64,000 bases of DNA, taken from Ruegeria atlantica (lineage in GTDB: Bacteria; Pseudomonadota; Alphaproteobacteria; Rhodobacterales; Rhodobacteraceae). Numbering within the stretch: position 1 is the stretch's first letter; every line of letters starts with the position of its first letter. This document shows positions 20,604 to 27,419 of this stretch, piece after piece. The stretch is taken from the NCBI RefSeq assembly GCF_001458195.1, contig NZ_CYPU01000023.1, forward strand, positions 1 through 64,000. The letters are read 5' to 3'. Both the position numbers and the translations under genes were made by a program. The notes below the pieces were generated by a model, which did not search any database, was not told where the DNA came from, and saw nothing but the letters and a program-made list of their open reading frames with translations.

Positions 20604-23003
20604 TCATTCTGCTGCATCAGGAACATCAACAATTGAATAGTTGGCCTTTACGCGTTCCTTTGTCGGGTCAAAATGAGGGAAAGGCACTATTTTGGCTTTC
20701 AGACGCTTTTGTTGGCCGTCCAGTTGCCCGATTTCAATGTCAGCTCCGACGACGGCATGAGTGACCGAAACCCGGCCTAACGCAATAACCTTGCCCAGAA
20801 CGGGTGATTTCATCGCGCTGGTAATCTCTCCAACCTGCGCCTTTCCTAAACGCACACAGTCGCCGGGCGAGGGGACCGTGCCGCCCTCAATCTCGAAACC
20901 GACCAGTTTGCGATGAGGATGGGTCTTGCGTTCTTCAATCGCTGCCCGCCCGATAAAATCGTCGGGCTTTGACTTCAGTGGAACGGTGAAGCCGATGCCA
21001 GCCTCGAAGGGATCGGTTTGATCGTCGAATTCGGATCCGGCAAAGATCAAGCCACCTTCGATCCGCACCATATCCAGTGCCGCAAGTCCAAGCGGAGCTA
21101 TGCCATATTCCTGGCCAACCTCCCAGACGCGATCAAAGATCTCGACGGCATCTTTGGGATGGCAGAAGATTTCATATCCCAGCTCACCTGAATACCCGGT
21201 CCGAGAAATTACGACAGATGTCCCCTGCACATCACCAACCCGAGCCACGGTAAGCCGGAACCATGGCAGTTCTTCGATCGTCGGTTGCTGAGGCGGTGTC
21301 CAAAAGATCTTGGAAAGGATGTCGCGACTGTACCGCCCTTGAACCGCAATGTTGTGCAATTGATCAGTCGAATTGCGCACCCAGACATTCATATTGCGTT
21401 TGAGGGCCTGTTCCTGCAGCCACAATCCGCTGGTATCATTCCCGCCGATCCAGCGGAAATTCGTCTCACCCAAACGATAGACGGTGCCGTCGTCGATCAT
21501 GCCGCCGTGCTCATAGCACATAGCCGTATAGACGACCTGACCAACGCTCAGCTTTTTCATGTTGCGGGTTACGCAAAGCTGCATCAGCTCTTCTGCGTCG
21601 GGTCCGACAACTTCGTATTTCCGCAAGGGGCTGAGGTCCATAACCGCCACCTTGTCGCGGCAGGCCCAGTATTCGGCAATCGCGCCGTGATTGGTCATCG
21701 TGTTGGGCAGCCAATAGCCGTTATATTCGACGAAATCACGGGTGTGCCGTGCAAAGCAGTCGTGAAATGCAGTTTTCTTGGTTTCTTCCACATCCGCCTC
21801 CGCAGATTTTCTATAGCCGTAGGATCTTTTGAAATCCTCGGTCGCCTTGTAGGTTCGCACCTGAATATCGGTTGGATTCCAGCCATTTGCTGGATCAATG
21901 TCGCAGGGACAGCCGGTGCTGACGCAGACCAGATCGGTCAGCGCGCGCAACAAGACGAAGTCACCGGGGCGCGACCAGGGGTCGTCCATGCCAATGGCGT
22001 TGGTGTCGTCCAGCATCGTGTTGAAAAAGAAGTTGATTGCAGGCCAACCACCACGTGGTTTGATGCCATACTGATCCAAGTCTTTATTGATATTGTCCGA
22101 GCAATTCACGTGGCCGGGGTAACCGAGATCTTCATAATACCGCGCCGTACAGGCAAGGCCAAACGTGTCATGGCGTCCGCACGTATCCTGAACGATCTCT
22201 ATCAGCGGTTCCTGATCAACTGACCAATACTTCGAAAAAATCCCCGGTTTCGGATACAAGCTGCCCATCAGGCTACGCGTTGTTGTGGGATCAATCTCGC
22301 GTTCGATCCCCTGATCCAGTGCCCGTCGGCTGAAGGCCTGAAAATCCGAGCACTCACGCCCGCGAACATCGACAATCTGAATGAACTCACCGGCCCTGAC
22401 CTCGTACGAGTGGGCATTGCCCGGCTGAATATTGAAGTCCCTGAGCGGATCGGCCAGCGGTTCGGGTGGTCCCACATCGGGTTTTTCCAAACCGGGTGCA
22501 GAGCGCTGAATGTACAGGATGATATCCGTGGGAGGGTTGTTATCTTCGGGGCGCATCGCCTTGCCGGGTGCAGCCACGATCAGAAGGCCCTCACATTCGG
22601 CGACGAAATGCACCATGTCACCGGGGCGCGACCCGTCGGTAAACGCCCGGATCGCGTCACCTTTTCCGATGTCAAATCCGGCAACTTCCAGAGCGCGCAG
22701 CACTTTCTTGCCAGACGGCGATCCATTGGCCAGCGTCGCAATCAATCCCTCCGGACGTCCATGTCCCAAAGCACCCAGCATGGCCGCATCAGAACTTCGG
22801 TCAGGGGCAAAGAAGACCATCTCGGCCTGTTGCATCCCGTCGCGGTCCAACAAGGTTATCGTATCACCTTTGGAAACCGGAACAGCGCGCGACCCCATTC
22901 CGGGGACCGGGTGGCGTTCCGTTCCATGTGGCAGGATCGGAAGGCCGGGGGCCAGAACTCCGCTGCGTTCGAACGGAACTTCGAATACCGGCTTCACATT
23001 CAT
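20604..23003 (-). CDS. DUF1989-GcvT fusion, predicted folate-dependent demethylase or aminomethyltransferase
   Basis: A 799-residue fusion. Residues about 198-385 form a DUF1989 (urea carboxylase-associated) domain, with AGEFIQIVDVRGRECSDFQA, TCGRHDTFG, NCSDNI, RPGDFVLLRALTDLVCVSTG and CPCDIDPANGWNPT; residues 40-170 may be a weaker related unit. From about 415 to 790 is a complete GcvT-type aminomethyltransferase (GGMIDDGTVYRL, RTGYSGELGYEIF, LAALDMVRIEGG). GcvT relatives move one-carbon units from methylated amines or DMSP to tetrahydrofolate. Start at 23003 behind AGGAAG; its ATG overlaps the cupin stop. The cupin, betaine-type importer, fhs and folD nearby suggest catabolism of an imported methylated amine. 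The substrate is not known. Confidence 0.8.
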   Translation of the reverse strand: MNVKPVFEVPFERSGVLAPGLPILPHGTERHPVPGMGSRAVPVSKGDTITLLDRDGMQQAEMVFFAPDRSSDAAMLGALGHGRPEGLIATLANGSPSGKKVLRALEVAGFDIGKGDAIRAFTDGSRPGDMVHFVAECEGLLIVAAPGKAMRPEDNNPPTDIILYIQRSAPGLEKPDVGPPEPLADPLRDFNIQPGNAHSYEVRAGEFIQIVDVRGRECSDFQAFSRRALDQGIEREIDPTTTRSLMGSLYPKPGIFSKYWSVDQEPLIEIVQDTCGRHDTFGLACTARYYEDLGYPGHVNCSDNINKDLDQYGIKPRGGWPAINFFFNTMLDDTNAIGMDDPWSRPGDFVLLRALTDLVCVSTGCPCDIDPANGWNPTDIQVRTYKATEDFKRSYGYRKSAEADVEETKKTAFHDCFARHTRDFVEYNGYWLPNTMTNHGAIAEYWACRDKVAVMDLSPLRKYEVVGPDAEELMQLCVTRNMKKLSVGQVVYTAMCYEHGGMIDDGTVYRLGETNFRWIGGNDTSGLWLQEQALKRNMNVWVRNSTDQLHNIAVQGRYSRDILSKIFWTPPQQPTIEELPWFRLTVARVGDVQGTSVVISRTGYSGELGYEIFCHPKDAVEIFDRVWEVGQEYGIAPLGLAALDMVRIEGGLIFAGSEFDDQTDPFEAGIGFTVPLKSKPDDFIGRAAIEERKTHPHRKLVGFEIEGGTVPSPGDCVRLGKAQVGEITSAMKSPVLGKVIALGRVSVTHAVVGADIEIGQLDGQQKRLKAKIVPFPHFDPTKERVKANYSIVDVPDAAE

Positions 23004-23371
23004 AGTGCATCTTCCTGAATGATCTCGGTTGCACCGCGGTGGGTGACAACCAATAGGCATCCCGCCTCGGTTCGCGAATAGTGGCTGGACCCAGAAGCAA
23101 GACTGACAAAGTCGCCGCTGCGATAGCAAAATCCATCGTGATCTGTCAGATCGCCTTCGAGGATGAAGAACTCTTCTGGCCCATGGTGGATATGCGGGCT
23201 TGAACGCGTGCCCGCTGCCATCTTCATCAGATAACTGCCTTGCCCGGTTCCCTCATCAAAGCTGACATTCTTCCACCAGACTTGCTCGTCGGGTCGGCCT
23301 TCCATACGCATCCGGACAAATCCGGGATCGTCGAAACGGGTAACGGTGCGTGGGATTTGATACTGTGCCAT
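23000..23371 (-). CDS. Small single-domain cupin protein
   Basis: A 123-residue cupin. The first motif (SSPHIHHGPEEFFILEG) supplies His-His-Glu metal ligands; the second (YRSGDFVSLASGSSHYSRTE) supplies the last His. Such small cupins can be metal-dependent enzymes or ligand sensors. The start at 23371 (MAQYQIPR) lies one base before the permease stop codon at 23373. Its stop overlaps the start of the DUF1989-GcvT gene by four bases, so the two are co-translated and probably act in the same pathway. Confidence 0.82.
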   Translation of the reverse strand: MAQYQIPRTVTRFDDPGFVRMRMEGRPDEQVWWKNVSFDEGTGQGSYLMKMAAGTRSSPHIHHGPEEFFILEGDLTDHDGFCYRSGDFVSLASGSSHYSRTEAGCLLVVTHRGATEIIQEDAL

Positions 23372-23372
23372 C

Positions 23373-26383: not shown

Positions 26384-26465
26384 GGCTGCCTTTCTTTCGT
26401 GTTGAGCGCGGCCTTGCATCGCTGAGATGTTCAAGGCCGCGCCAGTTTCGGTGGATGCAACCGGA

Positions 26466-27419
26466 TTATGTACTGCAGGCACTGATCCAAGGATCAATGA
26501 CGGCGCGGTTGGCGTCCAGCCATTCTTCGGCTGCCTCTTCCGGCTCAAGCTCATCAGTGTCGACCAGCTTCGCCATCTCAGCAATCTGCGGGTTGGTGAA
26601 AGAAATCTCGGTCAGGGCGCAATACGCGGCCGGCCACTTGTCTTTCATGCCATCCCAAGCCGCCTTTTTCAGGTAACCCTCGGCAGGGTTGCCACAATCA
26701 TACAGCGCTTCCGGGTTGGGACCCTTGGCTGGATCCTTGTCGCACCCATCTTCCCATGCCGGGAATTCAACGAACTCACCTGGCCAAACAGCTTCGGCGA
26801 AGTTTGGCGTCCAGTTAAAGACCAAAACCGGCGTTTTGTCGGCCTCTGCCGCGCCAATCTCAGCCCAAAGGGCTGCGGCTGAACCCGCATTGATCACCGT
26901 AAAGTTCAGATCCAGTGCTTCGGCGCGTTCTTTACCATGCTTCAACCAGTCGACCGGCCCATCCAGATAACGGCCCTTGTCACCGGTTTCGGCTGTGGCG
27001 AACAGGTGCGCACAGTCGTTCAGTGCCTGCCAGTCAGGCAGGCCCGGGCAGGATTCCTTGGTCCACATCGGATACCACCAATCCTCGCGCGTGACCGCAT
27101 CGTGATCGCCAGCGTCATGCAGACCGCCTTTTTCCAGCGCCGCGCGGTAGGATGCACCAAACGCACCTTCCCAGACTTCCATCTCCAGCGCGACATCGCC
27201 CAAACGTACCGATTCATAGACGGCCTGACTGTCGGTGGTGACATATTCTACGTTGTTGCCCATCTCTTCGAAGATCAGGCCTACAACGTTCGACATCACG
27301 ATCTGGCTGGACCAGTTGTGAATGGGGATTACGATCGGGTCGCTGCTGTCTTCGGCAGCCGCGCCAGTTCCCGCTACTGCTGCCAAGGTTGCAGCAGAAA
27401 GTAGGTTTGTAAGTTTCAT
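26466..27419 (-). CDS. proX: Betaine/quaternary-amine ABC transporter substrate-binding protein
   Basis: Periplasmic binding protein of the OpuAC class, 317 residues from the ATG at 27419, preceded by AGGGAGC. A signal peptide ([20 protein letters not shown]) ends near residue 22. Aromatic residues that could cage a quaternary ammonium group are plentiful ([32 protein letters not shown]). Four or more cysteines ([31 protein letters not shown]) may form disulfides. It is the first gene of the transporter operon and is divergent from the LysR gene. Ligand identity (betaine, choline or a related amine) cannot be fixed from sequence. Confidence 0.88.

Follow-up and report, generated by a model that had tools for sequence, protein, structure and literature searches.

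Within a 64,000-nucleotide (nt) stretch of the Ruegeria atlantica genome (assembly GCF_001458195.1, contig NZ_CYPU01000023.1, positions 1 to 64,000; from here on, the window), we identified a run of five minus-strand genes at 20604-27419 that very probably constitutes a tmoXWV-cupin-tdm operon for the use of trimethylamine N-oxide (TMAO), i.e., the known importer and demethylase system with a modest variation. A preliminary description of this DNA had proposed an undescribed uptake-and-demethylation pathway. Family identity, conserved residues, gene order, and the distribution of the cupin were computed here; the activities of TmoX and Tdm are published ones from other species. We infer the transfer of formaldehyde to folate in the Tdm of the window as well as the roles of the cupin and of a divergent LysR-type gene. 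The five genes are as follows.

27419-26466, minus strand: tmoX, predicted TMAO-binding periplasmic protein, 317 amino acids (aa); PF04069 (148.5 bits), PDB 4xz6, TMAO pocket 7/7
26383-25355, minus strand: tmoW, predicted importer ATPase, 342 aa; TIGR01186 (346 bits; cutoff, 326.6), in order with tmoX and tmoV
25358-23373, minus strand: tmoV, predicted importer permease, 661 aa; PF00528, two BPD_transp_1 stretches; relatives at other tdm loci keep this order
23371-23000, minus strand: accessory Cupin_7 protein, 123 aa; PF12973 (60.6 bits; gathering score, 27), between tmoV and tdm
23003-20604, minus strand: tdm, predicted TMAO demethylase, 799 aa; NF053776 (1197 bits), PDB 9q59, metal-site residues 6/7

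Pfam searches on the five proteins returned OpuAC, ABC_tran, BPD_transp_1 (two stretches), Cupin_7, and, in the fusion encoded by the last gene, DUF1989 (residues 192-359), GCV_T (414-672), and GCV_T_C (698-779). The genes with their order and coordinates, the domain calls including the DUF1989-GcvT fusion, the betaine-type binding protein (PF04069), and the adjacent divergent LysR and fhs-folD genes agree with the preliminary description. Of the start/stop overlaps that it reported from the ATPase gene onward, those of ATPase/permease and cupin/fusion are present (4 nt each), but the permease and cupin genes are separated by 1 nt; the gap between the binding protein and ATPase genes is 82 nt. 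R. conchae has the identical run (folD, chorismate mutase, fhs, LysR, binding protein, ATPase, permease, cupin, and fusion), and the gene order is, therefore, not due to chance.

The DUF1989-GcvT fusion is a predicted TMAO demethylase

The fusion matches the NCBIfam equivalog for TMAO demethylase (NF053776) with 1197.1 bits (cutoff, 1100) over positions 9-763 of the 763-position profile, while the other nine NCBIfam families listed for it all score below their own cutoffs. Among solved structures, the fusion best matches PDB 9q59, which was deposited as TMAO demethylase (E value of 5.3e-286; residues 27-788 aligned) and is identical at 284 of 509 residues in the stretch compared. In Methylocella silvestris Tdm, C263, C279, and C343 are Zn ligands, H276, D346, and the A344 backbone are Fe ligands, and D198 is implicated by mutagenesis (PMC12560246); the numbering of 9q59 fits this protein with a constant offset of 22. 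Using M. silvestris numbers, six of the seven metal-site letters (C263, C279, C343, H276, D198, and D346) are kept in the window Tdm and the 9q59 chain, and the seventh position, A344, is Pro in both. Across 82 Tdm relatives, the six residues are invariant save H276, which is present in 81. Based on this family assignment and the published activities, the fusion is predicted to be the TMAO demethylase Tdm, converting TMAO to dimethylamine and formaldehyde.

Three other identities score below their family cutoffs, i.e., the dimethylsulfoniopropionate (DMSP) demethylase DmdA (NF009133, 166.9 bits; cutoff, 410), the glycine cleavage protein GcvT (TIGR00528, 207.3 of 235.85 bits; NF001567, 252 of 300), and a urea amidolyase-associated DUF1989 protein (TIGR03424, 102.1 of 284.7 bits; TIGR03425, 60.2 of 205.95).

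Tdm scoring above the NF053776 cutoff was found in 46/198 genomes of the family, 0/14 control genomes, and 23/337 genomes of the class. Some family genomes with such a Tdm also carry a second Tdm-like protein of ~1025-1055 bits, i.e., below the cutoff, the substrate of which may differ (e.g., G001:C7, G072:C12, G134:C8, G160:C374, and G190:C97). On a Parasedimentitalea marina plasmid (L012, ~20001-22037), the Tdm match is split into four parts with no intact open reading frame (ORF), and a cupin gene is still upstream. In the window, a 170-aa ORF with no Pfam match (20046-20558, minus strand) lies 45 nt past the tdm stop, and in several Ruegeria loci, relatives of this ORF likewise follow tdm.

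The importer is a predicted TmoXWV

The binding protein aligns to PDB 4xz6 with an E value of 1.2e-173 and 178 of 205 identical residues in the stretch compared. This structure is R. pomeroyi TmoX, in which W55, W102, F106, E131, W177, F220, and W222 form the TMAO pocket (PMC8918994); all seven are identical in the window protein (W36, W83, F87, E112, W158, F201, and W203). The TIGR01186 cutoff passed by the ATPase is that of the ProV-type subfamily. By family assignment and published activities, the importer is TmoXWV, with TMAO as its predicted substrate.

These results uphold the outline of uptake plus folate-linked demethylation in the preliminary description, with the importer, the demethylase, and fhs-folD in place, but not its novelty: the set corresponds to the known TmoXWV and Tdm, and the Tdm equivalog, two solved structures (9q59 and 4xz6), and published work speak against an undescribed pathway. 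TMAO, the substrate indicated by the evidence, was missing from its list of suggested substrates.

Predicted TMAO pathway and neighboring genes

Next to tmoX, the following genes were located.

27612-28592, plus strand: divergent LysR-type gene, putatively associated regulator; PF00126 and PF03466
28743-30452 (ORF), plus strand: fhs, formate-tetrahydrofolate ligase, neighbor; NF010030 (942.5 bits; cutoff, 652)
30510-30815: chorismate-mutase-like ORF between fhs and folD; 84% identical to R. conchae chorismate mutase
30868-31758, plus strand: folD, methylene-tetrahydrofolate dehydrogenase/cyclohydrolase, neighbor; PF02882 and PF00763, NF010785 (506 bits; cutoff, 396)

In the proposed mechanism, TmoX would capture periplasmic TMAO via an aromatic box and one glutamate, TmoWV would bring it in using ATP, and the Zn/Fe site of the Tdm DUF1989 domain would split it into dimethylamine and formaldehyde. 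The formaldehyde is probably handed to tetrahydrofolate (THF) by the GcvT domain, and the neighbor-encoded FolD and Fhs could carry the C1 unit to formate with a gain of ATP. We propose this route because THF addition reduces formaldehyde release by Tdm (PMC12560246) and because fhs-folD adjoin the tmo-tdm genes in both the window and R. conchae. The dimethylamine would then serve as substrate for a DmmDABC-type enzyme whose genes lie elsewhere in the genome. Contig C65 contains a DmmA relative that is 91% identical to that of R. conchae. Beside it are an ORF starting like R. conchae DmmD, an amt-like ORF, and two ORFs that occupy the DmmB and DmmC positions; these gene names were assigned by order and similarity.

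Two observations weigh against reading the locus as an operon for TMAO use. M. silvestris Tdm is argued to have lost two THF contacts of Escherichia coli GcvT, having F487 and L618 in their place (PMC12560246), and folate transfer is disputed. At these positions, the window Tdm has Y509, matching the Tyr of E. coli GcvT, and Leu; among 82 Tdm rows, the F487 position is Tyr in 48 and Phe in 34, and the L618 position is Leu in 80. Given the Tyr/Phe split, the folate question differs among members of the Tdm family. In addition, orthologues of GmaS and MgsC were not found in this genome (best matches, 34-39%), and complete use of TMAO nitrogen can, therefore, be proposed only tentatively. An assembly gap is the likely explanation because all 12 relatives searched have GmaS (84-100%) and C65 stops 394 nt past the amt-like ORF, at the point where mgs-gmaS follow in R. 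conchae. A PF00743 search yielded two matches and no clear Tmm in this genome; the stronger is nearest to other flavin-containing monooxygenases and only weakly similar to structures named trimethylamine monooxygenase, and the weaker (L099) fell outside the comparison. Tmm is, thus, likely absent from this genome.

Farther along the window are ligase-associated DNA damage genes for PdeM and a DEXH-box helicase, each above its NCBIfam cutoff (32715-35830, minus strand), and Tad/Flp-type pilus genes for a TadA-like ATPase, a secretin, and CpaB (41287-47306, minus strand).

The cupin gene is a minority accessory of tdm

We surveyed 83 loci comprising the window, two plasmid records, and 80 loci from genome contigs; the latter are the best 80 of 583 candidates and are biased toward close relatives. 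The cupin gene is present in 23 loci (20/80 contig loci, both plasmid loci, and the window), always between tmoV and tdm, while three of the contig loci (L040, L062, and L073) had too little upstream DNA for scoring. In L076 and L082, the cupin gene runs 4 nt beyond the start of tdm. In the sister locus L013, the Tdm of which is 98% identical to that of the window, tmoV directly precedes tdm, and the rest of the L013 genome has no copy of this cupin either. More broadly, whole-genome searches of nine relatives lacking the local cupin gave no copy of >49% identity, whereas three controls gave 71-85%.

Cupin matches occurred in 12 of the 198 family genomes. The three of ≥58% identity (window, G033, and G090) adjoin tdm, and none of the nine weaker ones (40-55% identity) is beside tdm. 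The 337 class genomes contained 19 cupin-profile matches in 14 genomes, nine of which also have a Tdm match; only that of the window was seen beside tdm, with some of these assemblies being fragmented. We conclude that cupins of such closeness accompany tdm as a minority accessory and that most Tdm operons manage without one.

A quick Tdm tree was computed for 82 rows, of which 22 have the cupin, 57 lack it, and three are the unscored loci; L012 was left out for lack of an intact Tdm ORF. On this tree, the trait requires at least eight changes, at least six of which are forced by well-supported branches. None of 500 shuffles gave as few changes (mean, 19.5). The window and L013 are 96-100% identical over most of tmoX to tdm; identity drops to 81-94% in the 300-nt windows that span −611 to +589 relative to the tdm start and falls again beyond the tdm end. 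The dip around the tdm start suggests homologous exchange. The ratio of nonsynonymous to synonymous substitution rates (dN/dS) is 0.08-0.14 for the cupin gene (seven pairs), exceeding the 0.02-0.07 of tdm (six pairs) but staying well below 1. Thus, the cupin is under purifying selection.

Among the HxH...E...H ligands, H60, H62, and E66/E67 are invariant in 15 rows, and H97 is kept in all but one or two. The AlphaFold model is a plain cupin (mean pLDDT, 90.4; pTM, 0.81). Its best fold matches are acetylacetone-dioxygenase-type and ChrR cupins (PDB 3bal, 2o1q, and 3o14), which share 15-24% identity with the window cupin, and the fold does not indicate a reaction. Fold searches singled out no one enzyme, the cupin DMSP lyases DddK/DddQ being among the classes considered, and an assignment as ChrR anti-sigma factor was rejected (TIGR02451, 34.4 bits; cutoff, 124.5). 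Among the papers listed by literature searches on cupin with TMAO, demethylase, Tdm, trimethylamine, tmm, or tmoXWV, the word cupin is absent from the available text of PMC13390433, PMC5520151, and PMC8918994 and appears once each in that of PMC4334477 and PMC10030565, in a DMSP-lyase reference. Of the five proteins, the cupin is the sole one for which we found no description in the literature searched.

The divergent LysR gene is a candidate regulator

Relatives of the LysR protein (≥45% identity) are encoded divergently beside tmoX in 37/83 loci and beside tdm in 6/83, a count that omits L077 as a would-be seventh. Among the others, 30 have no LysR relative in the DNA covered, 8 are too short, and 2 have it placed otherwise. 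The R. pomeroyi regulators are the AraC-type TmaR and the GntR-type TmoR (PMC13390433), and the word LysR is absent from the available text of that paper. A literature search found no paper linking LysR with TMAO, tdm, and Roseobacter. From its position, we consider the LysR protein a candidate regulator of the window locus.

Alternative explanations for the locus and for the cupin

The module could instead import and demethylate another methylated solute, such as glycine betaine, choline, carnitine, or DMSP. The binding protein belongs to the betaine class, and the permease and ATPase are weak-to-moderate matches to models for choline and betaine transporters. Conversely, the binding protein reaches only 29 of 215 bits for ProX and 27.4 of 379.05 bits for a choline-binding protein, the fusion stays below the DmdA cutoff (166.9 of 410 bits), the TMAO pocket is fully retained, and DMSP is reportedly not a ligand of R. 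pomeroyi TmoX (PMC10030565). Based on the family cutoffs and pocket residues, we discarded a betaine, choline, or DMSP module, which is barely credible next to a TMAO operon.

As for the cupin, catalysis of an obligatory step in the pathway would fit its location inside the operon with the 1-nt and 4-nt junctions, the retained metal ligands, and the low dN/dS. Such a step is nevertheless highly improbable and was rejected: the cupin is lacking in 57 of the 79 Tdm tree rows scored for it, the whole-genome searches of cupin-less relatives gave no copy of >49% identity, and it is an accessory rather than an obligatory component because the nearest sister locus, L013, and the rest of its genome lack it. 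It could also be a passenger unrelated to TMAO metabolism. The patchy occurrence on the tree, the identity dip resembling a recombined tract, the 18 of 19 class-wide profile matches away from tdm, and a dN/dS exceeding that of tdm all point this way, but the position is constant in 23/23 cupin loci from several lineages, the gene is under purifying selection, and the three closest matches in the family survey all adjoin tdm. We, therefore, regard a passenger as rather unlikely. In our main reading, the cupin is a dispensable, metal-binding accessory that may, at a guess, supply metal to Tdm or handle a by-product. In a fuller version that we put forward tentatively, as possible though short of an even chance, the cupin would be a dedicated, exchangeable helper of Tdm in iron/zinc loading, formaldehyde protection, or by-product clearing, and the LysR protein would be a regulator that responds to TMAO or dimethylamine and differs from TmaR and TmoR.

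Significance and comparison with known systems

Because TMAO turnover supplies the nitrogen and methylamine cycles of the sea, naming the locus assigns this organism a known biogeochemical role. The system is known in kind, and the cupin and LysR genes pose modest questions, i.e., what Tdm needs or leaves behind in part of the Rhodobacterales and how TMAO is sensed.

In Ruegeria pomeroyi DSS-3, we take SPO1549-1550 to be the remaining TmoXWV genes. That system shares the importer type, the demethylase family, and the identical TmoX pocket with the window locus. Its locus tags are SPO1548 (TmoXWV) and SPO1562 (Tdm) (PMC5520151), and by these numbers, tdm does not adjoin tmoXWV, whereas tmoXWV, cupin, and tdm form a single run in the window. 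The Tdm of M. silvestris BL2 has the domain order and metal-site residues in common with the window Tdm but has F487 where the latter has Y509 (PMC12560246).

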